Shown here one piece after another: positions 6,785 through 38,547 of a stretch of DNA of 40,283 nucleotides (positions are counted from its first letter, which is position 1; every line of letters begins with the position of its first letter). The position numbers and the translations under genes were made by a program. Origin of the DNA: a virus; IMG/VR virus record IMGVR_UViG_3300008954_000110, positions 1-40,283 of that record. One strand, given 5' to 3'. The notes below the pieces were generated by a model. The model ran no database searches. It was not told where the DNA came from and saw nothing but the letters and a program-made list of their open reading frames with translations.

Positions 6785-6787
6785 TCC

Positions 6788-8833: not shown

Positions 8834-8846
8834 TTCACTCGGTGAT

Positions 8847-8875: not shown

Positions 8876-8946
8876 TGGGGATCTAAGGCTCCTGACCTGA
8901 TACGCGGGCAGGAGGACGTAAACCCGCTTCCTGAAGGGAGGACATC

Positions 8947-10292: not shown

Positions 10293-10298
10293 GTTGTC

Positions 10299-24997: not shown

Positions 24998-24999
24998 CC

Positions 25000-25769: not shown

Positions 25770-25770
25770 C

Positions 25771-26985
25771 GTGGCAAGAAGCGGCTACTCCCCAGAAGAG
25801 CAGCTTCAGTACCTCATCACCGCGGCCCGGAACGTGGCGAGACGCACAGGCACCGTGCGGCAGACCGACCTGAGGCTTGAGCTGGCGGCCACTGGCGCTC
25901 CGATAATGTCTGAGTCCAGTGTCCGGCGGGCGTTTGGGTACACGATCTCGGACATAAAGCGCCACGTCATCCGGGGCGACCCCTTGGCGGCTCGCAGCGA
26001 ACGCGAGCCTGTGGAGACGGTGGAGTACGACCCGGACAAGGGCGTAGACCCAGAGGCTGTGTGGGATCGACTGAGGACTCACGCCTCAGAAAGGATCGAC
26101 CGGGAGATCGCGCAGCGGTTCCGCTCTGTAGACCTGACATCGTGCGCTGGGCCTGTCGGTCTGCTGTTGATGGGGGATCTGCACGTCGGTCACCAGGCTG
26201 TCGATTACGCCCGAATTGACTGGTGCGTAGAGCAGGTGCGGAGAGATGACATCCCGGTGCGTGCGATCCAGATCGGAGACGCAACCGACAACCTGTTCTG
26301 GGCAGTGAGCGACATCCAAGCGCAAACGACAGAGATCCCAGAGCAGGCGGTCGCCGTGGCGAGGGTGTTCGGGCTCATGGGTGACCGCTTGTTGGGGGTT
26401 GTCCCTGGGAACCACGACCAGTTCGGGCAAACCCGGAGCGGGCAGTGCATCTGGGACACGGTCGTTGCCCTGTGCCCTGGCTTGGTCTACGACCCGTATG
26501 AGTTGGTGCTCGACATCCGAATTGGCGAGGTGGTGTATCGATGGGTGGTGCGTCATCAGGTGAGGGGGCGATCCCAGTACCGGGCGTCTCACGGCGTAGA
26601 TCGCTGGCACCTGTTTAACGACGCGCACCTGGACGCGGACGCGGTGGTCGCCGGGCACACGCATACGTCGGGTTACGCGCACCGGGAGATGAAGGGGAAG
26701 AAGCGCCACGGCGTGCAGCTCGGCTCTTACAAGAGCCCGGAGGGGATCGGTGACGACTACGCGACGAAGCAGGGTTTCGCGTACGGGAACTACAACCCCG
26801 ACATGGTCGCCATCTTGCACCCGGACATCCGGCGCATCGAAGTGTACGAAGACTCAGAGCGCGGGCTAACCGTGCTCGAGTCGCTGTGGAAAGGGAAGAC
26901 CCAGAAGTCATGGCCTCGGAAGAGATCGGGCCGGAAGACGAAGCGCAGGACGAAAGCCACGAAGGGTGCGCCGAAGACGGCGTAA
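25771..26985 (+). CDS. Calcineurin-like metallophosphoesterase
   Basis: A 404-aa protein starting at GTG two bases after the holin-like gene; the longer open frame upstream belongs to that gene. The metallophosphoesterase metal-binding motifs are all present: GDLHVGH (135-141), GDATDN (169-174), GNHD (213-216), RH (261-262) and GHTH (295-298). Residues 1-75 are an extra helical region with an HTH-like SESSVRRAFG. The C-terminal 25 residues are a polybasic tail. Phage relatives include nucleases and phosphatases; a DNA- or nucleotide-directed role is inferred. The 3' end overlaps the next gene by 76 bases. Confidence 0.88.
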   Translation: MARSGYSPEEQLQYLITAARNVARRTGTVRQTDLRLELAATGAPIMSESSVRRAFGYTISDIKRHVIRGDPLAARSEREPVETVEYDPDKGVDPEAVWDRLRTHASERIDREIAQRFRSVDLTSCAGPVGLLLMGDLHVGHQAVDYARIDWCVEQVRRDDIPVRAIQIGDATDNLFWAVSDIQAQTTEIPEQAVAVARVFGLMGDRLLGVVPGNHDQFGQTRSGQCIWDTVVALCPGLVYDPYELVLDIRIGEVVYRWVVRHQVRGRSQYRASHGVDRWHLFNDAHLDADAVVAGHTHTSGYAHREMKGKKRHGVQLGSYKSPEGIGDDYATKQGFAYGNYNPDMVAILHPDIRRIEVYEDSERGLTVLESLWKGKTQKSWPRKRSGRKTKRRTKATKGAPKTA

Positions 26986-27206
26986 CGCTCTGGCGGTTCG
27001 TGCTCTCGTCAGACGGCGAGAACTTCTACGAAGTGCATTTGCTGAACAAGGGGGAGCCCAACCTCGGCACGGTGATCGAGCGCCACCTCTCCCCGGACGG
27101 CGAGGTGCTGCCATGCTTTTGGCGTAGCCAGTTTCCACGGCCCAAGGCGGTGAGAGCCGATTACGTCGTTATGTACCAGCAGGTCCTGTTGGACACCATT
27201 GAGTGA
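26910..27206 (+). CDS. Acidic unknown protein
   Basis: A 98-aa protein; ATG at 26910 is preferred, with AGAAG just upstream, although an in-frame GTG at 26886 exists. The first 25 residues are strongly acidic (EEIGPEDEAQDESHEG) because they share DNA with the polybasic end of the phosphoesterase gene in another frame. The rest is globular (TLWRFVLSSDGENFYEVHLL). Not recognised. Confidence 0.6.
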   Translation: MASEEIGPEDEAQDESHEGCAEDGVTLWRFVLSSDGENFYEVHLLNKGEPNLGTVIERHLSPDGEVLPCFWRSQFPRPKAVRADYVVMYQQVLLDTIE

Positions 27207-27220
27207 CGAAAGGGGGCGGG

Positions 27221-27346
27221 ATGCCCAAGGCAGGCGGGAAACAATTTGCGTACACCAAGGCGGGGAAGCGTGCGGCGAAGGCGTACGCCAAGAAGATGGC
27301 GAAGTCCAAGGTGACCAAGAAGAAGGTCACCAAGAAGAAGAAGTGA
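27221..27346 (+). CDS. Short Lys/Ala-rich basic peptide
   Basis: A 41-aa gene with a strong AGGGGGCGGG before the ATG. The product begins MPKAGGKQFAYTKAGKRAAK and ends in KVTKKKVTKKKK, with about 40% Lys. Similar short peptides of the form MPKxGxKxFxYTxxGK are, from memory, widespread in phage structural operons. Histone-tail-like charge suggests nucleic-acid contact in the head or cell, but function is unknown. Confidence 0.75.
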   Translation: MPKAGGKQFAYTKAGKRAAKAYAKKMAKSKVTKKKVTKKKK

Positions 27347-27347
27347 T

Positions 27348-28256
27348 ATGAGCTCTCAACAAGCATTCCATTCGGAGCCTGCGGGAACGATGCGAGGTCC
27401 GGCTGGCCGGCCTTTGCGGCCACACGAGGTGAGGACCCTGGGGCAGGGTGCCTTTGGCAGCACTCCAGCTTACGAGGAGGCCTTGCGGGCATCGCAGATG
27501 CACCACCGCGTTCCAGAGGTGAGCCCGGCAGACGTAGCCGCAATTGATGCGGCACTCACCCGGCCTCCGACGCAAGTGGTCACAGCGCCTCCGGGTCCGG
27601 CACCGATGCCGATGCCGAGAGCAGCGGCACCTCTGCCGCCGGGGGGCGGCGCGGCTGAACAACCCCGCCCGCCGGTCCCCGCCGGTCCCCACTGGTCGTA
27701 CGGGCAGCCGTTCCCAGACAACTGGCAACCCCACAGCAGGCCTCCGGGTCCGGCACCGATGCCAATGCCCGCCGTCTCCGCGCCTCCGGGTCCGGCACCG
27801 ATGCCGATGCCCGCACCTCCCGCGCCAACGACGATCTCGCCTACCGGGCAAACCGGGGCGGACCTGGTGGACGCGCTGGACCCCCAGCTCGACTACTTGG
27901 TAGGCCAGATCGGGGACCTCGCTACTGGACTGAACCCAGAGGACGTGGCGACCGCGTGGCGGCGCAACAACATGGACGGTTTCGTGAATGCGTTCGTCCG
28001 CTCTCGCGGCCCGGAAGCAGGGGAGAAACTCCTCGACACGCTCTTCCGCCGTCACTTCCACAACCGACCGGAGATGGCGCCCATCTGGGACGCTATGGTC
28101 AGTGAGATCGAGAAGGGGCTTCAACTCCCCGGCGGGGTGGGACTCGACACAGGTGGTCGCCAATACCTGGACCCCCTTCAGGGGCCCGGGGCGCCAGAGC
28201 CGCCTCGGTTTTCGCCAGACCCCACGACCTTCAGCGGGTTCCGGCGCCAAGAATAA
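27348..28256 (+). CDS. Pro-rich repeat protein
   Basis: A 302-aa protein starting one base after the previous stop. Residues about 80-160 contain three PPGPAPMPMP repeats plus Pro/Ala/Gly linkers; the C-terminal part (about 165-290) is a helical domain (VDALDPQLDYLVGQIGDLAT). The layout suggests a disordered arm attached to a folded module, perhaps a virion or cell-surface component. Family not recognised. Confidence 0.7.
   Translation: MSSQQAFHSEPAGTMRGPAGRPLRPHEVRTLGQGAFGSTPAYEEALRASQMHHRVPEVSPADVAAIDAALTRPPTQVVTAPPGPAPMPMPRAAAPLPPGGGAAEQPRPPVPAGPHWSYGQPFPDNWQPHSRPPGPAPMPMPAVSAPPGPAPMPMPAPPAPTTISPTGQTGADLVDALDPQLDYLVGQIGDLATGLNPEDVATAWRRNNMDGFVNAFVRSRGPEAGEKLLDTLFRRHFHNRPEMAPIWDAMVSEIEKGLQLPGGVGLDTGGRQYLDPLQGPGAPEPPRFSPDPTTFSGFRRQE
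27587..27811 (+). repeat. Three near-identical 30-bp repeats
   Basis: Three copies of a 30-bp unit beginning GCCTCCGGGTCCGGCACCGA, at 27587-27616, 27740-27769 and 27782-27811, in frame and encoding PPGPAPMPMP. The second has one base change (GCCAATGCC). Near-identity at the DNA level shows recent duplication or slippage inside the gene. Confidence 0.9.
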
Positions 28257-28315
28257 AAAACAAGACGACTGAACCTCGCCGCCCGGCGGGAGTATGAGCA
28301 AGGGGGGAACTCGCA

Positions 28316-28843
28316 ATGAGAGCCTTTCTCGTACTGGTTGTCTTGGCGGTCTGCGCTTGCGGTCAGGTCGTCATACCAAGGGTAGTGACGGACGAGTCGG
28401 TGCATGGGCTGACGGTGACCGCGGATCTCGCGTTCTACACCCCGGCGCACGACGAGATTGTGACCGAGTGGTTCGTGTTCCTCACCCCGGACCTCTCGGC
28501 GTCGAGCCCGAGGACGCTCCCTCCTACGGCGAACTGGGGGGGCGTGCCTCCCCCGGAAGGGCTGCCGATGGAGTGGCTCGGCGCTCCAGCATCCCCGCCG
28601 GTCGGGCCGGTCTACGCGCCCACTGGGGTTACCGGAGAAGTCCTCCCATCGCCGTCTGTTTTCGGCGGCGGCTCGTGGGCTTACGCCGCAATGGGTGCGT
28701 CCTTCTCCGGGTTCATGGAGTGCGCTGTCTGGGCCATCCCTCCGTCGGTCAATCCTCTCGGGTGGAACGCCTACTTCGTGGGGTACACCGCCAGTGACTC
28801 GTACGGGTTCCGGTTTTGGGGTCTGTGGAGCGAAGTCCAGTGA
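28316..28843 (+). CDS. Secreted or lipid-anchored protein
   Basis: A 175-aa protein with an AGGGGGGAA ribosome site. Residues 1-15 (RAFLVLVVLAVCAC) form a signal segment; VCAC could serve as a lipobox, giving Cys15 as the lipidated residue, but it is a poor match to LAGC. The mature part is beta-rich and Pro/Gly/Trp-rich. It lies at the end of the rightward operon with the lysis and membrane genes. Function unknown; an exclusion or envelope role is speculative. Confidence 0.65.
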   Translation: MRAFLVLVVLAVCACGQVVIPRVVTDESVHGLTVTADLAFYTPAHDEIVTEWFVFLTPDLSASSPRTLPPTANWGGVPPPEGLPMEWLGAPASPPVGPVYAPTGVTGEVLPSPSVFGGGSWAYAAMGASFSGFMECAVWAIPPSVNPLGWNAYFVGYTASDSYGFRFWGLWSEVQ

Positions 28844-28926
28844 GCGCCAGCCTCGCGGCTCTTATGCTCGTGTTCCTGGTCCTGGCGTGGAGCGCGAGCA
28901 AGGACGAGGGGCGTCACCGTCGGTAG
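28840..28926 (+). CDS. Tiny membrane peptide, 28 aa
   Basis: GTG at 28840 overlaps the previous stop as GTGA. The peptide is one membrane helix (ASLAALMLVFLVLAWSAS) followed by a charged tail (KDEGRHRR). The last codons overlap the 3' end of the leftward gene at 28914. Translational coupling and the membrane-plus-basic-tail pattern support it; function unknown. Confidence 0.5.
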   Translation: MSASLAALMLVFLVLAWSASKDEGRHRR

Positions 28927-29102
28927 CGGCCACGCACCTCCGCAAAGCAATGGCGCTCCTCAATCGCGGCGCACTTGTCACAGGGGTCTCTCGTCGCTGA
29001 GACGTGCCTCGCCCCGCAGGTCCGGCAGTAGAGCCCGGGATCCCTGGGAGGAAGGGGGCGAGGGTCCCGCTCCCGGGCTGCTCTGCGCTTACTCAGAGTC
29101 AT
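28914..29102 (-). CDS. Small zinc-ribbon protein at end of recT operon
   Basis: A 62-aa leftward gene overlapping the 3' end of recT; TTG at 29111 with GGAGG upstream is an alternative start. The N-terminus is Arg-rich (SKRRAARERDPR), then CRTC and, 15 residues later, CDKC give a four-Cys zinc ribbon with a further Cys downstream. Likely nucleic-acid-binding. As third gene of the recombination operon it may assist RecT, but this is only positional. Confidence 0.6.
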   Translation of the reverse strand: MTLSKRRAARERDPRPLPPRDPGLYCRTCGARHVSATRDPCDKCAAIEERHCFAEVRGRYRR

Positions 29103-29826
29103 TGCCCTCAATCGCCTCCACCGGGACGAGCTGGACCTCTTCCAGCCCGATCTCTCTCTGCTCGTCAGCGACTACCGCTCGCCGCAGCAACTGGCTGTCT
29201 TCTGTGGACATGGGGCACATCTTCAGAGTCTTGCGGATCACGGTCTTGAGGGCCATGGCCTCGTAGTCGGTAGACCAGGGCCCGGACCCAGAGGCTTTTG
29301 CACGAGAGCGGATGCGGTCCACGTCGTCCTTGGTCATGATCTCCCACTGGATGCCGCCGTCCTTGAGACGGACCACGCAGTAGACGTGAGTCATCGCGCC
29401 CGCATTGGACATCGCGGGGACGTGGCGGAGGACCGGCTCAAGCCCGTACGCGACATCGAACTCGTCGTTCGCACGGACGACCCGGGCCTCCACGGAGGAG
29501 ACCTCCCCAGTCCTCCTCGCGAGGGTCATGAGCCCGCGGTAGCCAGGGATCAACTGGCACTTCTGGCCGTACGGCACCAGGTATGCCTCCCCCAGCACGC
29601 TGTCGGGCATGAGGGAGAGGGCCGCGGCCTCGTTGATCGCCCCGATGACCGACTCCACGCTGCACTTCTGGAGTTGCGGCGTGGTGCCGAACGCGGTGAG
29701 GGCTACTCGCTTGAACCGCTCGACATCCACCCCCTTGGCGAGCATGCTCTGAAGCTGCGATGTCCGGGCCTCCAGCATCTGCCCGAAGTTCTGAACCTTT
29801 TGCCGTGCGGTGACTGCGCCTGCCAT
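29089..29826 (-). CDS. recT: RecT-family single-strand annealing protein
   Basis: A 245-aa annealing protein that pairs complementary ssDNA made by the adjacent exonuclease. ATG at 29826 overlaps the exonuclease stop (TAATG) and has GGAGG 7 bases upstream; the longer open frame is not used. RecT hallmarks are visible: AINEAAALSLMPDSVLGEAYLVPYG and the QLIPGYRGLMTLARRTGEV core, then MALKTVIRKTLKMCP near the C-terminus. It is probably used for replication-coupled recombination and end processing. Confidence 0.93.
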   Translation of the reverse strand: MAGAVTARQKVQNFGQMLEARTSQLQSMLAKGVDVERFKRVALTAFGTTPQLQKCSVESVIGAINEAAALSLMPDSVLGEAYLVPYGQKCQLIPGYRGLMTLARRTGEVSSVEARVVRANDEFDVAYGLEPVLRHVPAMSNAGAMTHVYCVVRLKDGGIQWEIMTKDDVDRIRSRAKASGSGPWSTDYEAMALKTVIRKTLKMCPMSTEDSQLLRRAVVADEQREIGLEEVQLVPVEAIEGNDSE

Positions 29827-30749
29827 TACTTGTGCCTCCTCAGGATCCGTGTGGTGCGCTCCGGGTGCTCCACCGTGTACGCCTTGCGTACCTGCGTCTT
29901 CCAACTGTAGCTAACGCCGTTCGGCAGCACTCCCGAAGTGTGCTCACCTATGGCCCTTTTGAGTTTGTTCTCCAGTTCCTTCTTCTTGTCGCCCATGTCC
30001 TTGAGCGCCTGCTTCACGCTGACGAGCTCGTCGTCGAGGTCGGTGAACATGCCCGTCAGCGCGACACTGCCTTCGCTCAGGCTGGCGGGGTACATGAGGG
30101 AGAGGACTTCCCCGTCACCGGCAGTCGTCTCGTCGGGCGGATCCCCCGCCTCCAGCCGCTCGTGGAACTCCTTCACCTTCGGCAGCAGCTCGTCGTGGAT
30201 GAACTCGTCATCTCGCTCGATCTCCCACATCTCGAATTGCCGAGCGTTGAACAGCGCCCCGACCGTGACCATGTTTGACCGGGTCACCGCCATCTGCACT
30301 TGCACCTGGCACTGGACATGAGCAGGCACGCCATCCTCCCAGTGCTTGGTGACCGAGGTGACCTTCGCCTCGCCCAACTCTGGGAACGGCTCCTTCAGCG
30401 AAGGGATCACGCCAGCCCCTCCGACGATGGCGTCGGGGGTCGCGTGCAGGTACGGGAAGTCGGGGTTCACGAGCCCGATCTCGAACTCCGAGAACGTCTT
30501 CCCCTCGCTCTTGTCCGTCATGGCCTGAAGCACGGCGGTCTGGAGCCGGTGCCCCCACTCTGCCGCCTCGCTGGCAATGGGGCCGTCGTCGGTCAGCCCG
30601 ATCTTGTTGGAGAACAACTTCAGGGGGCTCGACCAGGGGTTGAGGCCGAGGATGGTGGCAGCTTCGCTCGCGCCGATGGATGATTGCCGCCACTCGAGCC
30701 ATTTTTGGCGCTGATTGACCGCATGGGGACCTTTTCTGAGAGCTTCCAT
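29826..30749 (-). CDS. YqaJ / lambda-exonuclease-like recombination nuclease
   Basis: A 307-aa 5'-3' exonuclease of the PD-(D/E)XK superfamily that makes ssDNA for RecT. Motifs: SSIGASEAATILGLNPW (23-39), the acidic helix around E64, HATPDAIV (102-109, D106), GEAKV (126-130, the E-x-K pair) and QCQVQM (148-153). The C-terminal third is a helical extension not needed for the catalytic core. The ATG at 30749 has only GGGG directly before it, so the start is less certain than the function. Confidence 0.9.
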   Translation of the reverse strand: MEALRKGPHAVNQRQKWLEWRQSSIGASEAATILGLNPWSSPLKLFSNKIGLTDDGPIASEAAEWGHRLQTAVLQAMTDKSEGKTFSEFEIGLVNPDFPYLHATPDAIVGGAGVIPSLKEPFPELGEAKVTSVTKHWEDGVPAHVQCQVQVQMAVTRSNMVTVGALFNARQFEMWEIERDDEFIHDELLPKVKEFHERLEAGDPPDETTAGDGEVLSLMYPASLSEGSVALTGMFTDLDDELVSVKQALKDMGDKKKELENKLKRAIGEHTSGVLPNGVSYSWKTQVRKAYTVEHPERTTRILRRHK

Positions 30750-30777
30750 CCCCTGATATTACGGTCGGGGCGGACAG

Positions 30778-31083
30778 TCAGAGGAGGATGGAGTCGGGGT
30801 CTGGGGCCCCTGCGTCCGGGGGCGTCATCTCCGGCCCGGCAAGAGGCATCTTTGCGAGCGCCGACCAGAGTTCCGCCGACCAGCACCAGACTCGCTGGCT
30901 CGCGGGATCCCGGCGAACCACCTCATGGAATGGGTGATCTGGGTCGCTGGTCGCTCGTCGGGTGCTGCGAGAGGACATTCCCGCGTACTTACCGATGACC
31001 CGCCAGCCGCGGAGGATGCGGGGCCATTCCGCCGGGTCGGCGGGCACTTTTCGCTCCTCAGGAGCAGGGGGCAGATCTGTCAT
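30778..31083 (-). CDS. HTH DNA-binding protein, likely regulator
   Basis: A 101-aa protein at the head of the leftward recombination operon. Residues about 20-65 (WPRILRGWRVIGKYAGMSSR then TRRATSD, PFHEVVRRDPASQRVWCW) form a helix-turn-helix plus wing like small AlpA/excisionase/regulator families. No ribosome site precedes the ATG; instead a promoter lies so close that the mRNA may begin at or within a few bases of it. It is the obvious candidate to bind the repeated palindromes just upstream. Confidence 0.75.
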   Translation of the reverse strand: MTDLPPAPEERKVPADPAEWPRILRGWRVIGKYAGMSSRSTRRATSDPDHPFHEVVRRDPASQRVWCWSAELWSALAKMPLAGPEMTPPDAGAPDPDSILL

Positions 31084-31092
31084 GGACGGGTG

Positions 31093-31121
31093 ATTTTACA
31101 GCTATTCAGGCCCATCCGCAA
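31093..31121 (-). promoter_or_regulatory. Leftward promoter of recombination operon
   Basis: On the minus strand TTGCGG (31116-31121) is separated by exactly 17 bases from TAAAAT (31093-31098), a 5/6 match to TATAAT. Transcription would start at about 31086, giving a leader of only a few bases before the ATG at 31083, i.e. a near-leaderless mRNA. The palindrome at 31130-31155 ends 9 bases upstream of the -35. Confidence 0.6.
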
Positions 31122-31129
31122 ACGAGGGA

Positions 31130-31155
31130 CCCTCTGGAGTACTTACTCCAGAAGG
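31130..31155. promoter_or_regulatory. Palindromic site 1 (CTGGAGTA family)
   Basis: CCCTCTGGAGTA (31130-31141), a 2-base spacer, then TACTCCAGAAGG (31144-31155): inverted 12-base arms with one mismatch. It shares its half-site with the second site 133 bp away and lies just upstream of the leftward promoter. Likely an operator, or an iteron of a replication origin. Confidence 0.7.
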
Positions 31156-31178
31156 TAGGCGGATGGGGCAGGGACCTT

Positions 31179-31277
31179 CGACAGTGGCAGCTCTCGAACG
31201 TCCTGAAGAGGGGCGGTAAGTGGTGACGGCCAAACCCTTTGCGTCTCCGACCGTCCGACAGTGGAGGCTCTGGAACG
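31179..31277. repeat. 22-bp direct repeat inside control region
   Basis: CGACAGTGG-AGCTCT-GAACG type sequence occurs at 31179-31200 and 31256-31277, matching at 19 of 22 positions. The two copies lie between the two palindromic sites, adding a second repeat family to the same 200 bp. Confidence 0.65.
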
Positions 31278-31287
31278 GGGGGCGCCA

Positions 31288-31324
31288 CCTTCTGGAGTAC
31301 TACTCCAGAAGGTACTCCAGAGGG
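31288..31324. promoter_or_regulatory. Palindromic site 2 with extra half-site
   Basis: A perfect 12-1-12 palindrome, CCTTCTGGAGTA C TACTCCAGAAGG (31288-31312), directly followed by another half-site TACTCCAGAGGG (31313-31324). The tandem half-sites are 12 bp apart. It ends 20 bp before a TGCTATCAT extended -10, so a bound protein would cover the rightward -35 region. Confidence 0.75.
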
Positions 31325-31340
31325 TAGCGAGGGGACGCCG

Positions 31341-31349
31341 TGCTATCAT
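31341..31349 (+). promoter_or_regulatory. Candidate rightward promoter (-10 TGCTATCAT)
   Basis: TGC followed by TATCAT is an extended -10 element; no good -35 is visible at the right spacing, but the palindromic site occupies that place, consistent with an activated or repressed promoter. Predicted start near 31356. Related TGnTAnnnT elements precede the 36223 and 37640 genes. Confidence 0.4.
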
Positions 31350-31355
31350 GCCCGC

Positions 31356-31483
31356 GACGACGCCACACCTTGGCGCGGCATCGCCGGGTATGCGTCTCCC
31401 CGGCGACACACCACCCGCGCCAGACTGAGGGTTAGTCACTGCCCCCGGAAGTCTCTCGCGAGGACTCTCGGGGGCGCTTTCTT
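31356..31483 (+). ncRNA. Candidate structured small RNA or attenuated leader
   Basis: The segment from the predicted start to a strong terminator contains no credible ORF but is highly structured. An outer 8-bp stem TGGCGCGG/CCGCGCCA (31371-31378 with 31415-31422) encloses an inner 8-bp stem TCGCCGGG/CCCGGCGA (31381-31388 with 31399-31406) with a 10-base loop, and the terminator hairpin follows at 31441. The expected length is about 128 nt. It could be a free small RNA or an attenuator ahead of the 31746 operon. The family is not recognised. Confidence 0.45.
31441..31483 (+). terminator. Intrinsic terminator upstream of 31746 operon
   Basis: GCCCCCG (31441-31447) pairs with CGGGGGC (31469-31475); inside, AGTC/GACT and the self-complementary CTCGCGAG extend the stem. 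GCTTTCTT follows. It is a convincing Rho-independent terminator with no gene between it and the upstream candidate promoter. Confidence 0.75.
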
Positions 31484-31745
31484 GCCCCCAGAGACTTGCG
31501 CCCCGGCGGGCCACCCTCTACGCTCCCATCCTGGGCGACGGAGACGCACCCTAAGCCCCCCAGATTGGTTCGCCGCATCTGGGCACCAAAACGCGGCCAC
31601 GTCCCACAGGGGGCCGGAGAGACGCGCTACCGGCTTGGGCCTACAAGACGAAAAACTGCGGGGGCCTGAGGGTGTGCCCTCCCACTGAACCCCGGACCCG
31701 CAACCTGGGGGGAGGGGGGGTGTCTGAGAAGGAGGGAACCCCGCT
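31484..31745. other. Non-coding stretch before 31746
   Basis: Together with the sites above, 31084-31745 is about 660 bp without a convincing gene. This part has several small hairpins, e.g. CCCAGAT/ATCTGGG (31559-31565 with 31577-31583) and GAGGG-TGTG-CCCTC near 31670, G-runs near 31710, and an AAGGAGGG ribosome site at its end. ORFs crossing it lack starts and coding character. It could be a leader or part of an origin. Confidence 0.5.
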
Positions 31746-31940
31746 GTGTCCGAACACACACCAGAGACGATAGAGACCTGTGAGTGCGACCTTTGCACCC
31801 TCGACCAGATCATGGCAGCTCGGGTAGTACTCGCTGCCGTGTCAGGCAAGGACGCAGATATGATGGTGAGGATGGCGAGCAAGCCGCCCCCCACCAAGGG
31901 TCTGCGGCTCGCGTGGGAGGACTTTATCCAGCGCAATTAG
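31746..31940 (+). CDS. Small CxxC protein
   Basis: A 64-aa protein starting at GTG with AAGGAGGG about 10 bases upstream. The N-terminus has CECDLC (residues 12-17), a compact Cys cluster, followed by helices with AARVVLAAVSGKDADMMVRM. First gene after the control region, 18 bases before the helicase-loader-like gene. Function unknown. Confidence 0.6.
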   Translation: MSEHTPETIETCECDLCTLDQIMAARVVLAAVSGKDADMMVRMASKPPPTKGLRLAWEDFIQRN

Positions 31941-31958
31941 CGAGTTAGGGGGGAGGGG

Positions 31959-32507
31959 ATGAGCGACAAGTCCAGAGTGGACGACGTGGTAGGGGCGTAC
32001 ATGGCGGAGTTATCCGAGTACCTACCGGGTATTCGGAGGCCCGTCGCGTCCGGCGTCAAGAAGTTGGTGCAGCAGGCCATCAACAGGGAGGGCTGGAGCC
32101 CATCGGAATGGCAGGAGTACTTCGCCTCCGTGCGGCAGATGCCATTCCTCCTGGGGCAAGTGAAACCCTGGCGAGCCAGCCTCTCGTGGCTCCTGGGGGT
32201 CACCAACATGGCGAAGGTGACCTCCGGCCAATACCTCCAGACGCAGGGAGGGGCGCCGGAGCAGACGCAGTCGATGAGATCACGGGTAGGGAGGGCTTTC
32301 GATGTCGAGCAGGCGCAGGGCCGGGGCATTCACGATCCTGATGGAGTTCCACGCATACCTCCAGTTGAGCGAGGAAGCCATCCGGTACTTTTCCAAGGCG
32401 ACCGGACACCTGAGCGACGAGGTGTTTCAGGAGACGGTCGAGCGCCTGATCAAGGAGAAGGGGAGGCGGATCGCGAATTTACTCGCGACCTTTTTGGAGA
32501 CTGCTGA
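31959..32507 (+). CDS. Helicase-loader / DnaD-like replication protein
   Basis: ATG at 31959 has GGGGGGAGGGG directly upstream. Residues about 48-93 (WSPSEWQEYFASVRQMPFLL then QVKPWRASLSWLLGVTNMAKV) match the conserved C-terminal block of phage replisome-organiser proteins (FLxGxxKPWRASxxWLxxxxNxxKVxxGxY). This copy is short and lacks a visible N-terminal DNA-binding domain. After about residue 105 the frame overlaps the next gene for 206 bases and looks non-native (Arg/Gly/Pro-rich), so the real protein may be shorter or frameshifted. Confidence 0.65.
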   Translation: MSDKSRVDDVVGAYMAELSEYLPGIRRPVASGVKKLVQQAINREGWSPSEWQEYFASVRQMPFLLGQVKPWRASLSWLLGVTNMAKVTSGQYLQTQGGAPEQTQSMRSRVGRAFDVEQAQGRGIHDPDGVPRIPPVERGSHPVLFQGDRTPERRGVSGDGRAPDQGEGEADREFTRDLFGDC

Positions 32508-32658
32508 TCGGGTGCGCGAGGACCACGCGATGCTCGCCCAGTCGGAGAGGGTAGCGGCCAGCCACCGGGTCGAGGACCAAGGCATGTCATGGCGTGATTT
32601 CCTGACGAGCAGGGGGTTGCCGCCGGACACCAAATTAGGAGAGGCACAGATCAAATGA
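32302..32658 (+). CDS. Helical unknown protein
   Basis: A 118-aa protein with GGGAGGG 6-7 bases before its ATG, a strong start despite lying inside the preceding frame. It is helical and charged throughout (YLQLSEEAIRYFSKATGHLS, RVREDHAMLAQSERVAASHR). Family not recognised; the operon links it to the replication-like protein before and the DpdA/QueD genes after. Confidence 0.7.
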   Translation: MSSRRRAGAFTILMEFHAYLQLSEEAIRYFSKATGHLSDEVFQETVERLIKEKGRRIANLLATFLETADRVREDHAMLAQSERVAASHRVEDQGMSWRDFLTSRGLPPDTKLGEAQIK

Positions 32659-32984
32659 GCGAGGGCGCAGTGGATAAGACGGTGCGGAAACAAGCCGAGA
32701 AGATCATGGCTCAACACCGCGAGAACTGGATGCGTCGGAAGTTGATCGCAGACGCGACGGCGAGGGCGGCGTACCGGCTCCTCCTGGGCCGGGTGGAGGA
32801 GAAGGGGCAACCCTTGCCCACGGTTGACCGTGAGGCCACATCCATGGAGATGCTGGCTCAGATCGCATTGGCGGTGACCAGCGACGGCTACGACTTGGAC
32901 GTGGTGCAGAAGGTGATTGACGAGGAGATGGAGGCGGGGCAGCCGAAGAAGGACGGGCCAACCCCTGAGGGCTCGCCTGCATGA
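32655..32984 (+). CDS. Unknown helical protein
   Basis: A 109-aa protein starting in an ATGA overlap. It has a basic N-terminal half (RKQAEKIMAQHRENWMRRK) and an acidic, helical second half, ending in a Pro/Gly tail. Its stop overlaps the start of the DpdA-like gene. Function unknown. Confidence 0.65.
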   Translation: MSEGAVDKTVRKQAEKIMAQHRENWMRRKLIADATARAAYRLLLGRVEEKGQPLPTVDREATSMEMLAQIALAVTSDGYDLDVVQKVIDEEMEAGQPKKDGPTPEGSPA

Positions 32985-33727
32985 TGGTCATGCCGTCCAA
33001 CAGCTGCGCGAATGTTGTCCACTATTGGGCCGGGAAACACCCCGGTCAACTGGGGCACCTCTATTCGCCAGGGGGGCAAAAGGGACCATTCTCGTGGCTC
33101 CCCTACGCCATAGACAATGGGGCATACCCAGCCTTTTCTAAGGGACGCCCGTGGGACGAGGCGGCGTTCACGGAGCTGCTGGCGTGGGCGCAGGAGGCAA
33201 GAGATTTCCGCGGCAAGGCACAGCCACCTCTCTGGGTCGTGGTCCCTGATGTCGTCGCTGACAAGTGCGCGACCCTCGACAGGTGGCAGGAGTGGGCGCC
33301 CAAAGTCTCCGCCTACGGCTACCCGTTAGCCTTCGCAGCTCAGGATGGCATGACTCCAGGGGATGTCCCACCCGAAGCCGATGTCGTTTTCATGGGCGGG
33401 ACGAGGGACTGGAAGTGGGCCAACCTGGAGGTGTGGTGTGAGCAGTGCCCCCGCGTCCACGTCGGGCGCGTGAACACATACGGGCAACTCCGCAGATGCT
33501 CAGACGCTGGCGTCGAGTCAGTAGACGGGACGGGGTGGTTCCGTGGAGGGATCAATGCCAATAACCAGCAACTACACCAGCTTCACCGATACCTGCGCGA
33601 AGAGGCGGGGGAGGCAACTCGGGAGATACAAAACACTGTCATGGGCTGGCGCGCTGATCTCCAACGAAAGGAAATCCTGGTGTCAACAGACGCGCCAGCC
33701 CATTTACCTACCAAGGGGAAGCAATGA
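32981..33727 (+). CDS. dpdA: DpdA-like (TGT-superfamily) DNA transglycosylase
   Basis: A 248-aa TIM-barrel-type protein resembling the phage/bacterial DpdA branch of tRNA-guanine transglycosylases, which swaps guanine in DNA for a 7-deazaguanine base. Features: IDNGAY (44-49), VVPDVV (87-92, candidate catalytic Asp90), AAQDG (119-123), FMGGT (137-141), HVGRVN (160-165) and SVDGTGW (180-186, Asp182). It lacks the large C-terminal tRNA-binding part of archaeal TGT. It is followed by queD with a 4-base overlap, which strongly supports a deazapurine role. Substrate base unknown. Confidence 0.65.
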   Translation: MMVMPSNSCANVVHYWAGKHPGQLGHLYSPGGQKGPFSWLPYAIDNGAYPAFSKGRPWDEAAFTELLAWAQEARDFRGKAQPPLWVVVPDVVADKCATLDRWQEWAPKVSAYGYPLAFAAQDGMTPGDVPPEADVVFMGGTRDWKWANLEVWCEQCPRVHVGRVNTYGQLRRCSDAGVESVDGTGWFRGGINANNQQLHQLHRYLREEAGEATREIQNTVMGWRADLQRKEILVSTDAPAHLPTKGKQ

Positions 33728-34146
33728 AAGTCATCAAGGTGTTCAGGTTTGAGGCGGCGCATCGCCTTCCATACGTTGATCCAACCCACAAGTGCCACAA
33801 CCTCCACGGCCATAGTTATCGAGTTGAGGTTGAGGTCTCAGGTGGACTCGACTTCGACAAAGGTTGGGTCGTCGATTTCGGGGAGATCAGCGAGCGATGG
33901 GACGGGCGTTGCAAGCCCCTCTTAGACCACCAAGTGTTAAATGACCACCTCGACAACCCGACCGCCGAGGAGCTCGCCCTGTTCATCATGAACAAACTCG
34001 CCGGTCCCTGGCCGATCACCAAGATCACGGTCTGGGAAACGGAACGGTCGGCGGCGGTCTTGGAAACCACCCCAACGACGCGCAAGAAGCCAGACCTCTC
34101 CGCAAGAGACCTTCGCCCAACCCCTGACCACCAAGTCGGCGCATGA
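33724..34146 (+). CDS. queD: 6-carboxytetrahydropterin synthase QueD
   Basis: A 140-aa QueD/PTPS-family enzyme converting dihydroneopterin triphosphate to 6-carboxy-tetrahydropterin, the second step of preQ0 synthesis. Zinc ligands His13 (FEAAHRLP), His28 and His30 (CHNLHGHSY), catalytic Cys24, LDHQVLN with His69, NPTAEELA (78-85) and VWET with Glu105 are all in place. AAGGGG precedes the ATG, which overlaps the dpdA-like gene. The last 25 residues form a basic Thr/Pro/Lys extension beyond the core. Confidence 0.93.
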   Translation: MKVIKVFRFEAAHRLPYVDPTHKCHNLHGHSYRVEVEVSGGLDFDKGWVVDFGEISERWDGRCKPLLDHQVLNDHLDNPTAEELALFIMNKLAGPWPITKITVWETERSAAVLETTPTTRKKPDLSARDLRPTPDHQVGA

Positions 34147-34229
34147 GGGTGGGCTCACTCTTCAGCGGGATAGATCTCGGCACCCGTATCATGGAGGTCC
34201 ATGGCAAGCCCGACCCAGAGAACGCTTGA
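34143..34229 (+). pseudogene. 28-codon ORF resembling a cytosine-C5 methyltransferase N-terminus
   Basis: ATG at 34143 overlaps the queD stop as ATGA. The peptide begins MRVGSLFSGIDLGTRI, close to the start of Dcm-type cytosine-C5 DNA methyltransferases, where motif I (SLFSGIGG) binds S-adenosylmethionine. It ends after 28 residues, inside the next gene. It could be a relic left when a methyltransferase gene was replaced, or a translation-coupling peptide that resembles it by chance. Confidence 0.4.
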
Positions 34230-34638
34230 GTATCTGCGGAAGCAGGGCTGGACACCCGACGTGTGCGAGCGATGGCTGCCCGCCATGGCAACGCCAGCGA
34301 AGGGGCAGCAGCCAGCTCTGTTCCGCTTAGTCCGACGCAAAGACCTGTGGGGGTTTGGCGACGTGATCGCCATCGCGCCCGATGAGCAACCCCTGATAGT
34401 TCAGTGCACCTCAGGGTCGAACACCGCTGCCCGTGTGAGCAAGATGCTCGACGACCCGGACGTTAGCCCACGGGTCGAACTGGCGATGCGCTCAGGGATC
34501 CGAGTCGAGGTGTGGGGCTGGCGCAAGATCAAACTCAAGCCCGGGGGCAAGGCCGTGCGGTGGGCACCGAAGATCCAACCGCTCTCGCTCGCTCTCTTCG
34601 AGCACAAAAGAAGAGCCCCCGAAGATCGCGATCCATGA
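34201..34638 (+). CDS. PD-(D/E)XK-like nuclease (probable)
   Basis: A 145-aa protein with GGAGG before its ATG. Residues about 8-12 (LEYLR), 46-58 (RKDLWGFGDVIAI, Asp54) and 65-72 (LIVQCTSG) form a restriction-endonuclease-like core in which the usual E-x-K is VQCTS; VEVWGWRKI follows at about 103-111. This pattern occurs in a common phage family of presumed Holliday-junction/VRR-like nucleases. Activity with Gln in place of Glu is possible but unproven. Its stop lies in the loop of the terminator that follows. Confidence 0.65.
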   Translation: MASPTQRTLEYLRKQGWTPDVCERWLPAMATPAKGQQPALFRLVRRKDLWGFGDVIAIAPDEQPLIVQCTSGSNTAARVSKMLDDPDVSPRVELAMRSGIRVEVWGWRKIKLKPGGKAVRWAPKIQPLSLALFEHKRRAPEDRDP

Positions 34639-34651
34639 TCTTCGGGGGCTC
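34613..34651 (-). terminator. Bidirectional terminator between convergent operons
   Basis: A perfect 15-bp stem, GAGCCCCCGAAGATC (34613-34627) with its inverse at 34637-34651, and a 9-base loop. On the minus strand it is followed by TTCTTTTG, so it is a proper intrinsic terminator for the recombinase operon; on the plus strand the T-run is missing. The stop codon of the plus-strand nuclease gene falls within it. Confidence 0.85.
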
Positions 34652-34682
34652 CAGCTTGGGTTAGGATAACCGACGCGAGATT

Positions 34683-34958
34683 CTAACCCTCGCGAGGATT
34701 ATCGCCAACCTGCACCTCCCCAGAAACTGCGTACCCGAGGGTGGCTTCCACTTCTCGAAAGAGTTCCCTCAAGAACGGGAGCATCCTATCCGCCACCTCC
34801 GCCCCCAGTCGAGCGTGCGCCCTCAACAATTGATCCTCACCCCCAGGGCCGCTCCTGACCTCTCGCGCCAGATGGACAGTGCGGGCCTTGTCATCAAGCA
34901 CCTTAATCCGCAGCCACCACTGGTTTATGCGCTCGCGGCGCACCAGAGGGTCGGTCAA
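34683..34958 (-). CDS. Helical protein coupled to serine recombinase
   Basis: A 91-aa protein read from TTG at 34958, which overlaps the recombinase stop (TTGA) and has GAGG 7 bases upstream. The longer open frame belongs to the recombinase region. It is helical, with an Arg/Trp-rich start (RRERINQWWLRIKVLDD) and a long C-terminal helix (MLPFLRELFREVEATLG). Tight coupling suggests it works with the recombinase, for example as a directionality or accessory factor, but no family is recognised. Confidence 0.65.
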   Translation of the reverse strand: MTDPLVRRERINQWWLRIKVLDDKARTVHLAREVRSGPGGEDQLLRAHARLGAEVADRMLPFLRELFREVEATLGYAVSGEVQVGDNPREG

Positions 34959-35617
34959 GACGCAGCCTCGCGACGGCGGCGAAGGCGAGATATCGCCTGA
35001 TGCGTCCACGGTCGCCCCTGAGCGGTCGGCATGTTGCGAGCGTTCAGGTGGTTGGCAACCTCCCTCGTGGTGTAGTTGCCAGAGAGCAACGTCTCCAAGG
35101 CCACGCGGGTGTCCACGGGGAGGCCCCGGTCTGCCCGATGGCGGTTGAAGTCCTCCCCCCGCGCTGCCTTGGCCTGCAAGGCGGCCCGCGTCCGCTCGCT
35201 GATCAACCCCGCCTCCAACTCGGCCACCGCGGCCAGAATCGTGACGCCGAACCGGCCCATCGCAGAGTCTGTGTCGATCCGCTCCTTCACGGAGTGGAAC
35301 GCCCACTCGTCGCGCTTACTCTCCTCCACGATGTCCAAGATCGTCCGCACGGAACGGGCGACACGACTGATGTCCAACACCACCAAGTGTCGCACCCCGT
35401 CCTCCCGCTCCCGCAGCATCGTGAGGCACCGCTGGAGACCCTCGCGGTGAGCAGTCTTGCCAGTCAACCCCTCGTCCCTGATGACATCCACTAAGTGGAA
35501 ATCGTGCAGTTGGCAGTACGCCCGGATGCGAGCCTCCTGGGCCTCCATGCCCAGTCCGCTCTCCGCCTGCTCCACCGTGCTCACTCGCACATAACCAATA
35601 GCCTCGTTGTCACCCAT
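34955..35617 (-). CDS. Small serine recombinase (resolvase/invertase type)
   Basis: A 220-aa site-specific recombinase. The catalytic domain starts IGYVRVSTVEQAESGLGMEA with nucleophile Ser13; VLDISRVARS carries the conserved Arg pair, followed by the long E-helix (ELEAGLISERTRAALQAKAA). The C-terminus is a short HTH (TTREVANHLNARNMPT, then PWTHQAISRLRRRR). The length is that of resolvases and invertases; large phage serine integrases are more than twice as long. Start supported by GGGGAGG. Roles could be dimer resolution, inversion or integration. Confidence 0.92.
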   Translation of the reverse strand: MGDNEAIGYVRVSTVEQAESGLGMEAQEARIRAYCQLHDFHLVDVIRDEGLTGKTAHREGLQRCLTMLREREDGVRHLVVLDISRVARSVRTILDIVEESKRDEWAFHSVKERIDTDSAMGRFGVTILAAVAELEAGLISERTRAALQAKAARGEDFNRHRADRGLPVDTRVALETLLSGNYTTREVANHLNARNMPTAQGRPWTHQAISRLRRRREAAS

Positions 35618-35825
35618 TCGTCGGCCTCCCCTGCTTCCTCGGTTCCCACTTCCGCACGGACGCCAGCGGCACCCCCTTCACAGCGCGGTGCTCACTCGTC
35701 TTGATCTCGACATAGGGGAGATCCCCCCGCTCCACCGCCGCCTGCACCGCGGCCCACGAGCAACCCTTCATCTCTGCCACCATGGTCAGTGACACAAACG
35801 GGGTACTCTCCATCAGCCTGCTCAT
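35610..35825 (-). CDS. Excisionase-like HTH protein
   Basis: A 71-aa protein just upstream of the recombinase, overlapping it by 8 bases, with AGGAG before the ATG. Residues about 13-38 (TMVAEMKGCSWAAVQAAVER then GDLPYVEI) are a winged-HTH of the MerR/excisionase kind, with a short wing and a basic end. Next to a site-specific recombinase this suggests a recombination directionality factor or a small regulator. Confidence 0.65.
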   Translation of the reverse strand: MSRLMESTPFVSLTMVAEMKGCSWAAVQAAVERGDLPYVEIKTSEHRAVKGVPLASVRKWEPRKQGRPTNG

Positions 35826-35983
35826 GCGTCGTCTCCTTTCGCCTCGTCGCCCGGGTCGCAGTCAACGAGAAAGTCCTTCCCGCCCTCCAGCTCCTCCGCA
35901 CAACGCCGGGACACGTTGCGCCGACACTCATCACAGAGCTCGCGCCAGGATGGCCTCTCCACGAGACCGCAGCACACACACAT
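35822..35983 (-). CDS. Small zinc-finger protein, first gene of recombinase operon
   Basis: A 53-aa protein; ATG at 35983 is chosen because AAAGGAG lies 6-7 bases upstream, although the frame is open back to 36052. CVCC (2-5), LCDEC (16-20) and a further Cys provide a four-to-five-Cys zinc finger; the C-terminal half is acidic. The stop overlaps the next start as ATGA. Likely a small DNA-binding or protein-binding factor. Confidence 0.65.
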   Translation of the reverse strand: MCVCCGLVERPSWRELCDECRRNVSRRCAEELEGGKDFLVDCDPGDEAKGDDA

Positions 35984-36104
35984 GTTGCGCTCCTTTGTCA
36001 TGTCCACATGATCGCCCAAAACCCGTGAACCATCAAGAGCCCATCGGCCCATCGGCTCACGTCAGGGTGGGCGCAAACCCCTGCGGCGGAGGGCCTCGAG
36101 GCCT

Positions 36105-36130
36105 GGTGCCCGGCACGAGCTCCGGGCACC
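36105..36130. promoter_or_regulatory. 9-bp hairpin in divergent region
   Basis: GGTGCCCGG (36105-36113) and CCGGGCACC (36122-36130) are perfect inverted copies with an 8-base spacer, between the leftward recombinase operon and the rightward 36223 operon. No T-run, so more likely an operator than a terminator. Tandem CATCGGC at about 36041-36055 lies nearby. Confidence 0.5.
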
Positions 36131-36158
36131 CCCTGGGACCCGGGCAACGAGAGAACCC

Positions 36159-36185
36159 TTGCGTCCTCTCGATTTGTGCTACCGT
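36159..36185 (+). promoter_or_regulatory. Candidate promoter of 36223 operon
   Basis: TTGCGT (36159-36164) lies 15 bases before TACCGT (36180-36185), which is preceded by TGC, giving an extended -10 like that at 31341. Transcription would start about 30 bases before the ATG, whose leader contains AGGAGG. Confidence 0.35.
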
Positions 36186-36222
36186 GTCCACAGGGGGATT
36201 GGCCCCCGACAGGAGGACCGAC

Positions 36223-36558
36223 ATGGCGAAGAGTTATGAGGCACCGACCGTGGCCTTCGCAGAGTTTCAGGCCAGCCCCAAGGGGGGACGCATGAGCGAC
36301 AACAAGGACGTGGCGATGTTTTGCGACAATGTCGGGGCCATCGTGGGGGAGGCGTGGTGGGACCCGTCGCCAGACATGGACCTCCTCGCAAAATTGGCCG
36401 AGGCCGTCGAAGCCGACGACTACAGTTGCGATCACCCTGTAGATTGGGCATGGGGCTATCTGTTCGGCGTCGCCTCCTCCGGGGGCCAGACCATGCTGGA
36501 CTGCGTGCGTGACATGATCGCCCTGGCGCAGACTGCCGGACAGGAGGGAGAGTCATGA
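36223..36558 (+). CDS. Unknown acidic protein
   Basis: A 111-aa protein with AGGAGG before its ATG; an internal ATG at 36292 is a weaker alternative. Acidic and Trp-rich (GEAWWDPSPDMDLLAKLAEA, PVDWAWGYLFGVASSGG), with helices and two to three Cys. Not recognised. First gene of a three-gene block tied by ATGA overlaps. Confidence 0.65.
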   Translation: MAKSYEAPTVAFAEFQASPKGGRMSDNKDVAMFCDNVGAIVGEAWWDPSPDMDLLAKLAEAVEADDYSCDHPVDWAWGYLFGVASSGGQTMLDCVRDMIALAQTAGQEGES

Positions 36559-36650
36559 GGGCCATCGGTTACATGGCGATGATCCTGCTCTTCCCCGTCT
36601 GCATGATTCTCTGGATGCTCGACACCAACAACGAAAGGATGGACCGATGA
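36555..36650 (+). CDS. Tiny membrane peptide, 31 aa
   Basis: ATGA overlaps at both ends (with 36558 and 36647) and GGAGGGAG upstream. The sequence is one membrane helix (GYMAMILLFPVCMILWML) with a short charged tail (DTNNERMDR). Function unknown; its coupling to the thioredoxin-fold fusion could place that product at the membrane. Confidence 0.65.
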   Translation: MRAIGYMAMILLFPVCMILWMLDTNNERMDR

Positions 36651-37303
36651 AGATCACAAAGATCGACCGCGAGGCCTGCAAGGCCCTTCAGGAAGAACTG
36701 CAAGAGGCCCTGACCGAAGTGGGCGACCGCCTCGGCGTCCGACTGACGGTCGGCAACGCTTCGTACTCCGACACCCGCGCCACGATCAAGGTGGAGGCGA
36801 ACGTGGTCAACGAGGACGGCACGGTTACGAGCAAGGAGGCCGAGGCGTTCACCCGGTTGGCGCCCCGCTACGGGCTGGACCCCGCCGACCTTGGCCGCGA
36901 ATTCACCTCCGGGGGCGAGACCTACCGGGTCTCCGGCCTGAACACTCGCAGCATGAACCATGAAGAGATCGAGCTCCCGGAGGACCCGGCGTCCGCGATC
37001 CGCGTGCTGGAGGAGGGGTCTACGACCGCCCCTGTGGTCGTCTTCAAGAAGAGCCCCATCTGTCCGGTCAGCACCATGGCGGAGGGGAACTTCCAACGCT
37101 GGCTGTCCGCCAGGGGAGACGATCCCCTGAAGGTGTGCGTCGTCGATGTCATCAGCCAACGGGGTCTCGCCCGCGGGCTCACATCGGAGCTGGACATCCG
37201 GCACGAGTCACCGCAGGCGCTGGTGTTTCGGGAAGGGGTCCTGACCTGGCACGACAGCCACGGGGGCCTCACGGAAGACGCCTTCGCTGCGGCTCTGGGT
37301 TGA
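36647..37303 (+). CDS. Phage N-terminal domain fused to YtxJ/bacilliredoxin-like domain
   Basis: A 218-aa two-domain protein. Residues 1-105 (MKITKIDREACKALQEELQE, LTVGNASYSDTRATIKVE, YRVSGLNTRS) resemble, from memory, a small phage family of unknown function. Residues about 112-218 look like YtxJ/monothiol bacilliredoxin (DUF2847): VVVFKKSPICPVS with Cys139, then HESPQALVF (186-194) with the cis-Pro, and WHDSHGGLTE. Such proteins reduce or transfer thiols on protein disulfides in bacillithiol-using bacteria. A fusion of the two is unusual. The start has AAAGGATGG. Confidence 0.75.
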   Translation: MKITKIDREACKALQEELQEALTEVGDRLGVRLTVGNASYSDTRATIKVEANVVNEDGTVTSKEAEAFTRLAPRYGLDPADLGREFTSGGETYRVSGLNTRSMNHEEIELPEDPASAIRVLEEGSTTAPVVVFKKSPICPVSTMAEGNFQRWLSARGDDPLKVCVVDVISQRGLARGLTSELDIRHESPQALVFREGVLTWHDSHGGLTEDAFAAALG

Positions 37304-37639
37304 CCCCGGCCTCAGGGCGCGTCGTCGCCGGCGGCGTAGGTGATGGTGGACTCGGCGCACGCACCCCGAGGCCATCTCCGCCCGCTACCAGGGCACCAAG
37401 TGGGCGCCAGGTCGCGCCCAGCTCCGCCCGTCACCCGAGGGCCTCGAGACGTGGCCGGGGCCCATCGGACGCGGTTGGCCACGCGCCCAGCTCGGGAACC
37501 CCGGCGTGCCAGGGTGAGGCCCCTCGCCCGGGGCACCAGGTCGGGGCATGGGCGCCCCCCCCCCGGTGGAATCCGTGAGCCGTCACGAATTAGTGGTAGT
37601 GTGGGGGAGCGGGAATGGGCCCGCATTGGAGGAACCGAC
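37304..37639. other. Non-coding region between operons
   Basis: About 336 bp without a credible gene; frames through it lack starts and have Pro/Arg/Gly-rich shadow character. It contains GAGGGCCTCGAG (37437-37448), also present at 36089-36100, a C10 run (37555-37564), and a candidate -10 at 37597. It ends with GGAGGAACCGACATG, nearly the same leader as GGAGGACCGACATG at 36213. It is probably a leader/promoter region. Confidence 0.6.
37594..37602 (+). promoter_or_regulatory. Candidate promoter, TGGTAGTGT
   Basis: TGG plus TAGTGT (37597-37602) is another extended -10 of the TGnTAnnnT kind, with GTGAGC 16 bases upstream as a weak -35. It would serve the 37640-38634 genes. Confidence 0.35.
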
Positions 37640-37726
37640 ATGGGAACCTTGAGCGTAGTGGCCGTCGTGGCCATCGGGTTCGCGATACTTGAGATTGCAA
37701 CGGAGATAGCGTCATGGCGCCGCTAA
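37640..37726 (+). CDS. Tiny membrane peptide, 28 aa
   Basis: GGAGGAACCGAC precedes the ATG, a strong ribosome site. The peptide is a single membrane helix (LSVVAVVAIGFAILEIATEI) with a basic end (SWRR). It overlaps the next gene by 13 bases. Short single-helix peptides occur several times in this genome. Confidence 0.65.
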   Translation: MGTLSVVAVVAIGFAILEIATEIASWRR

Positions 37727-38547
37727 ACAGGAACGGCGCCGTTTTCTACAGGGGTCCGTCCATGATTGACGGCGCCCCGATAATCGGCGTGGCTACCGGA
37801 TTCCGCGTGGAATCCGATAACGGGAAAACAGGGGACATGATCCAAACGTGGATCATGCCGGAATCCGTGGAGCCGCCGACGGCGGCACGTAACGGCGCGG
37901 ATCGATCCGTGTGTGGGGATTGCAGCCACGCCTACCGACCCGACGACGACGACGATGACACCCGTACGTGCTACGTGGATGTCGGCAAGGCACCGTTAGC
38001 GGTTCACCGTTGTGCTTCCCGTGGCGGCTACCCGGACTACGCCACATGTGGGAGCGACTACGCATTGTCATCCGCCATCATAGGCGCCGACATGGACGTT
38101 CACGCTCCCGACGGTTGGAAACTACGTATGGGATCATGGGGCGATCCCGCTGCAATCCCTGCGGACGTGTGGGCCCACGCGGTGGATACTATCGTGGTAT
38201 CCGGCTGGACCGGCTATACCCACCAGTGGAACGCCCCCCGCGGTTCCATTCTCCGCCGTAACGTCGATAGGTTGCGTCCGTACGTTATGGCCTCCGTCGA
38301 ATCCGAACGGGAAGCACGACGTGCACAACGTCGTGGCTGGCGGACCTTCCGGGTTGGGCGCGGGCTGGACGACATGGCGGAGAACGAGACTCTCTGTCCC
38401 GCGTCCGAAGAGGCGGGACACCGCACTACTTGTGCGGACTGCACCCTGTGCGCGGGATTCGGACGGTTCGGGATTCGCCGTTCGGCGCGGTCGATCTTCA
38501 TCCCCGCACACGGCGCGCAAGCGGCAAGCATCCGGTGGGAAGTCTGA
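37714..38547 (+). CDS. Conserved Cys-rich phage protein (DUF7227-like)
   Basis: A 277-aa protein with GGAG before its ATG. Cys pairs occur at about 67-70 (CGDC) and, near the end, in LCPASEEAGHRTTCADCTLC. The middle carries WGDPAAIPADVWAHAV and SGWTGYTHQWN, and later SVESEREARRAQRRGWRTFR. This combination is, from memory, a widespread phage family of unknown function with conserved Cys that could bind zinc or an Fe-S cluster. The family name is recalled, not verified. Confidence 0.75.
   Translation: MAPLNRNGAVFYRGPSMIDGAPIIGVATGFRVESDNGKTGDMIQTWIMPESVEPPTAARNGADRSVCGDCSHAYRPDDDDDDTRTCYVDVGKAPLAVHRCASRGGYPDYATCGSDYALSSAIIGADMDVHAPDGWKLRMGSWGDPAAIPADVWAHAVDTIVVSGWTGYTHQWNAPRGSILRRNVDRLRPYVMASVESEREARRAQRRGWRTFRVGRGLDDMAENETLCPASEEAGHRTTCADCTLCAGFGRFGIRRSARSIFIPAHGAQAASIRWEV

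Follow-up and report, generated by a model that had tools for sequence, protein, structure and literature searches.

A short DpdA-like transglycosylase encoded with QueD as a probable compact DNA-protection module in a tailed phage

Introduction

Modification of phage DNA with 7-deazaguanines is best known from systems that combine a full preQ0 pathway with a DpdA enzyme of about 300 residues. In these canonical cases, represented by phage 9g, phage CAjan, and Sonali gp87, 7-deazaguanine genes adjoin dpdA and usually amount to the full folE-queD-queE-queC set. Schemes in which a phage carries DpdA only and draws the base from its host are also known, from Salmonella phage 7-11 and Pantoea phage MED16, which have dADG in their DNA, a singleton DpdA, and no phage preQ0 genes (PMC6884629, PMC8306585). 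A further type, DpdA2 of Vibrio phage nt-1, is a 464-aa protein with a TGT-like fold. Outside DNA modification, Cap10 of type IV CBASS is a TGT-family barrel that handles 7-deazaguanine; it binds the modified N-terminus of a protein, acting together with Cap9 and a CD-NTase. Here, we describe a phage locus in which a short dpdA-like gene overlaps queD, and we compare the protein and its gene context with these systems.

Results

A short dpdA-like gene overlaps queD in a tailed-phage contig

The window, that is, the whole 40,283-base stretch that we analyzed, is a linear tailed-phage contig encoding a terminase, a portal/head-tail adaptor, and a major head protein. The contig may be incomplete, and the gene absences reported below apply to these 40,283 bases only. 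A first-pass annotation of the sequence had proposed a 248-aa TGT-like protein overlapping a complete QueD, and both ORFs were recovered where it had placed them (Table 1), sharing 4 nt. Since a second 4-nt overlap joins the 109-aa ORF to the dpdA-like gene, the three genes look translationally coupled. By position, the 109-aa ORF is predicted to lie in the same transcription unit as the dpdA-like gene; its product had no family match above cut-off in Pfam, PHROG, or NCBIfam. The 145-aa protein encoded after queD had no match in Pfam or PHROG. A homologue of it adjoins short dpdA in loci L046-L050, where it lies upstream of dpdA (4942-5292 in L046), and it is suggested to be part of the module. 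Bases 24981-38411 of the window recur in a second assembled IMG/VR contig with 99.95% identity over 13.4 kb, so the dpdA-like/queD arrangement is not an assembly artefact.

Two other features of the window deserve mention. A serine recombinase (PF00239; 34955-35617, minus strand), whose start is overlapped by a short protein (35610-35825, minus strand), is transcribed together with that protein against the queD module, and its presence suggests a temperate phage. The plus-strand ORF at 36647-37303 encodes a 218-aa protein ending in a bacilliredoxin-like domain (PF11009 BrxC, E 1.3e-20), which is unusual for a phage.

Table 1. Genes of the dpdA-like/queD locus, with coordinates in the window.
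Feature	Position	Strand	Basis
Short dpdA-like gene, TGT superfamily, 248 aa	32981-33727	+	ORF with ATG start, phrog_15826, DpdA profile match, invariant residues, TIM-barrel model
queD, 6-carboxytetrahydropterin synthase, 140 aa	33724-34146	+	PF01242, TIGR03367, PDB 4ntm and others
109-aa protein, function not assigned	32655-32984	+	ORF list; 4-nt overlap upstream of dpdA-like gene
145-aa protein, function not assigned	34201-34638	+	Starts 54 nt 3' of queD

The 248-aa protein as a short DpdA-type enzyme

The 248-aa protein contains VVVPDVV, FAAQDG, MGGT, HVGRVN, and SVDGTGW, which include every motif quoted in the earlier reading. It had no matches in Pfam or NCBIfam, and PF01702 (TGT) matched nowhere in the window. 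It did match phrog_15826 (E 1.2e-32), a PHROG without an assigned function. As the sole query, the window protein retrieved only the near-identical contig from IMG/VR and nothing from genome_contigs, and searches of PDB by sequence, whether with the single sequence or with a profile, returned noise only. Searching cultured phages with tblastn yielded 24 records, ~33-40% identical to the window protein; depositors had annotated several of them (from Arthrobacter and Mycobacterium phages) as "DpdA-like tRNA-guanine transglycosylase". Relatives were found in at least 352 places in IMG/VR. In an alignment of 67 relatives (A3), D45, P89, D90, Q121, F137, G139, G140, K145, H160, D182, and G183 are invariant (67/67).

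The profile built from these 67 relatives matched the canonical phage DpdA family in HHalign with E 2.7e-8. With 9g DpdA leading the profile, the match rose to E 1.1e-9, while the best of 30 column-shuffled controls reached E 0.17. In the reverse direction, a DpdA HMM searched against 38,978 ORFs matched members of the window's clade at E 2e-5. HHalign against a single E. coli TGT sequence gave no match. The alignment pairs D72 (of DSGAF), D114, H141, the GG pair, H196 (the His of KVHGFG), and D215 of 9g DpdA with D45, D90, Q121, G139-G140, the invariant H160, and D182 of the short branch. In terms of Zymomonas mobilis TGT, D45 would correspond to the acid/base Asp, D90 to the substrate Asp, Q121 to the Gln, G139-G140 to the Gly-Gly pair, and D182 to the nucleophilic Asp, an active-site assignment that is based on alignment rather than superposition. 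The zinc site of tRNA-acting TGTs (three Cys and one His) is absent; among the 67 relatives, no Cys is conserved above 54% and H160 is the only invariant His.

These features place the protein among the known systems. It shares the aligned active-site positions, including H196, with canonical DpdA, but members of the short branch have ~205-248 aa, whereas canonical enzymes have ~300-317 aa and carry His where the short branch has Q121. The DpdAs of 7-11 and MED16 are closer in form: they are short (~234-261 aa), have DNGAF and PD motifs, match the short branch in HHalign (E 1.4e-9), and depend on a base that the phage does not make. However, they form a separate sequence group, neither queD nor a transporter is reported with them, and Q121 and the H.GRVN motif are found only in the present branch. 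The proteins of Arthrobacter phages Aoka and Sonali, Mycobacterium phages GreaseLightnin and Ksquared, and others belong to the same family, with 31-37% identity, the same invariant residues, and the same fold expected; unlike the window gene, which is directly followed by queD, they are paired with a transporter (plus a QueF-like gene in Aoka) or a full pathway. Membership in DpdA2 was considered and rejected. The nt-1 protein gives a weak Foldseek match but lacks H196, whereas the short branch has H160; there was no profile match in the nt-1 genome and no HHalign match to the 464-aa protein.

An AlphaFold2 model made on A3 (pLDDT 89, pTM 0.83) is a (beta/alpha)8 TIM barrel. Its best Foldseek neighbors in PDB include the DpdA DNA preQ0 insertase (7ui4), Cap10-CdnD (9ntn), and many TGTs, and matches among predicted viral structures include several phage "queuine tRNA-ribosyltransferases". 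Because KDPG aldolases, epimerases, and other TIM barrels score equally with DpdA and TGT, the fold fits but does not discriminate; the discrimination comes from the sequence profile, the invariant residues, and the gene context. Judged from sequence, the 248-aa protein is a short, divergent, zinc-less DpdA-type branch of the TGT superfamily, and the TGT/DpdA relationship proposed at first reading is borne out by the HHalign match together with the neighbors of the modeled barrel. The accompanying suggestion of an undescribed branch survives in part: the branch is short and divergent, but it is not unseen before, since members are already annotated as DpdA-like in phage databases. We found no paper that treats the short DpdAs as a branch; novelty was assessed from PMC6884629, PMC8306585, and the annotation in databases, and an earlier description is possible.

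The level Foldseek scores of Cap10-CdnD and DpdA raise the question of the acceptor. The same type of enzyme could transfer the same base to tRNA, as a queuosine-type modification that aids phage translation, or to a protein, as Cap10/Cap9 do, perhaps disturbing a defence protein. A non-DNA acceptor is possible because Cap10, whose TGT-family structure has been reshaped for binding the N-terminus of a protein, has turned the TGT barrel to protein modification (PMC11996544), and the short protein is far smaller than the DNA-acting bacterial DpdA. We nevertheless consider such an acceptor unlikely. The profile matches phage DpdA, H196 included, as well as the short DpdAs of phages with modified DNA, and the zinc subdomain of tRNA-acting TGT is missing. 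Moreover, the window holds no QueC/Cap9-like protein, and no CD-NTase match was found among the adjacent ORFs scanned.

QueD is the only pathway enzyme found in the window

The 140-aa ORF matches PF01242 (E 2.5e-27) and solved QueD structures in PDB, 4ntm among them (E ~1e-21), and just passes TIGR03367 queuosine_QueD, scoring 89.4 bits where the cut-off is 89.25. It keeps the metal and catalytic motifs EAAHRL, C..LHGHS, and LDH..LND and the C-terminal Glu, and we read it from its sequence as a full-length, intact QueD. Scanning the window for QueC, a radical SAM protein (QueE), FolE, a precursor transporter, and canonical DpdA revealed none of them, so the first-pass statement that only queD is phage-encoded holds for this possibly incomplete contig. 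Its companion statement, that known phages carry dpdA with some of the pathway genes, leaves out the host-supplied, DpdA-only schemes of 7-11 and MED16. Across the window's clade, QueD scored above the Pfam cut-off in 14 of 47 contigs, many of which are fragments.

Short dpdA is repeatedly linked to 7-deazaguanine genes

The pairing with queD might be coincidental if QueD served pterin metabolism or the making of tRNA queuosine and the 248-aa protein were an unrelated TIM-barrel enzyme. The breadth of the PTPS family, the narrow pass of TIGR03367, and Foldseek E-values shared with aldolases and epimerases would fit this reading. Gene context was scored in 118 relatives, non-redundant at 80%, for a recognized 7-deazaguanine gene within 4.5 kb. 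Such a gene was present in 75 of the 118, as a queuosine-precursor transporter (Vut_1 family) in 55 and as queD, queE, queC, or folE without a transporter in 20, while the remaining 43, many of them in fragments, had no recognized partner nearby. The set comprises the matches listed from several queries, one of which was the transporter-associated Aoka protein, so 55/118 is not a population frequency. Partners are always on the same strand as short dpdA and mostly abut it: over all loci, 68/81 transporters and 23/29 queD genes lie within 300 nt. Among 28 neighboring membrane proteins sampled, 26 matched Vut_1, 25 matched TIGR00697, and 20 matched a preQ0/preQ1 transporter model. A transporter and synthesis genes occur together in one case only (with queC), and combinations without a transporter include queD alone, queD-queE, and queC-queE.

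A quick tree of the family, weakly supported at 45 of its 115 inner branches, requires at least 28 changes of partner type, with separate minima of 19 for the transporter and 13 for synthesis genes; when only well-supported branches are counted, these two minima are 5 and 9, respectively. The many changes indicate that the link between dpdA and 7-deazaguanine genes is not a single inherited accident, and the repeated linkage excludes a chance neighbor for practical purposes. Together with the profile match to DpdA and the lineages that carry queE, queC, a Q-precursor transporter, or a QueF-like gene in place of queD, this makes a coincidental pairing very improbable.

One clade, which includes Arthrobacter phage Aoka and a Nocardia farcinica contig, has the order transporter, QueF-like, short dpdA. 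In Aoka (L001, 4086-5570), these are gp38, gp39, which scores above the PF14489 cut-off, and gp40, and L086, L089, L090, L092, L109, and L277 are arranged likewise; in this cultured phage, gp38-gp40 resemble an operon for import, reduction, and insertion. The nearest relative in a bacterial assembly, on an Acidobacteria gp4 MAG contig (L263), has QueC directly upstream, but at 52% it is too distant for the host of the window phage to be named from it.

Several loci depart from these patterns. A clade in actinobacterial assemblies of Nocardia, Actinomadura, Sphaerisporangium, and Nonomuraea (L269, L273, L275, L276, L278, L281, L286, and L287) has no recognized 7-deazaguanine gene nearby, and its members may be prophage or host genes. 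PAPS-reductase/PP-loop-type proteins, possible tailoring enzymes for the base, lie near short dpdA in 11 loci (7 non-redundant), including L006 (5589-6506), L156 (7201-7986), L053 (5977-6789), L133, and L279. In L071 and L073 (ORF 3-11819), the short DpdA domain forms part of a 3,939-residue open frame and resembles a polyvalent-protein domain; this protein might be injected with the DNA, and its C-terminal 1,333 aa had no Pfam match.

Among 56 contigs or records with the short gene, 4 also carry canonical DpdA (Sonali, phiG7, R29Z, and one contig from IMG/VR), and in these the two lie beside or near each other. The short protein could accordingly be an accessory to the inserting enzyme: it might be a non-catalytic subunit, carry the base, or remove 7-deazaguanine from DNA, and eukaryotic TGT does have a non-catalytic partner subunit. 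We find this role improbable, as the other 52 of the 56 show no canonical DpdA and the catalytic positions are all invariant in the 67 relatives. In addition, the short gene is frameshifted in Escherichia phage phiG7 while canonical DpdA is kept, which fits redundancy rather than an obligate subunit. The phiG7 paralogue (L005, 4881-5470) is split into two overlapping frames beside the intact canonical gene, and the short DpdA of phage SHIN8 was likewise matched in two pieces.

A proposed route to modified phage DNA

Our preferred reading, to which we give a probability of roughly 0.7, is that the short DpdA swaps guanine in phage DNA for a 7-deazaguanine, is fed by QueD and the host pathway, and thereby hinders restriction. 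From the computed homology, active-site set, QueD assignment, and operonic pairing, we infer the reaction, DNA as its target, preQ0 as the base, the host supply, and the anti-restriction role as follows. The 248-aa protein would carry out the TGT reaction on phage DNA, replacing guanine with a free 7-deazaguanine base; D182 would act as the nucleophile and D45 as the acid/base. The translationally coupled QueD would make CPH4, the first committed intermediate, and thereby feed the FolE product into the pathway; FolE is a folate enzyme that hosts commonly have. If QueE and QueC are both present in the host, they would then complete preQ0, which is probably the inserted base and which, in phage DNA, would hinder host restriction enzymes. 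A Pseudanabaena phage carries a QueD that is absent from its host (PMC9837993), a precedent for single-gene supplementation. Across the family, the same DNA transglycosylase would be fed by import, by import plus a QueF-like step, or by partial synthesis atop the host pathway.

A variant that we hold to be unlikely is that these short enzymes define a distinct base-transfer system, supplied by synthesis or import, that departs from known DpdA in its base or its target. The base could then be a 7-deazaguanine not yet described in DNA, or the acceptor could be something other than DNA, for instance a defence protein of the host modified in the manner of Cap10.

Discussion

Our findings suggest that the short DpdA and QueD probably form a compact DNA-protection module in this phage. 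Compared with the best-known phage systems, enzymes of the short branch are smaller and mostly found in the absence of canonical DpdA; their partner genes provide import (Vut_1), import together with a QueF-like enzyme, or part of the synthesis pathway. A 2019 survey detected no correlation between the transporter and any phage group (PMC6884629), whereas in the DpdA branch described here the transporter is the most frequent partner. If the proposed route is correct, the DNA of Aoka, GreaseLightnin, and ReqiPine5 would be modified only when the precursor is available. Such a dependence on precursor might also be the reason that a phage can appear unmodified, despite carrying a DpdA, when its host makes no preQ0.
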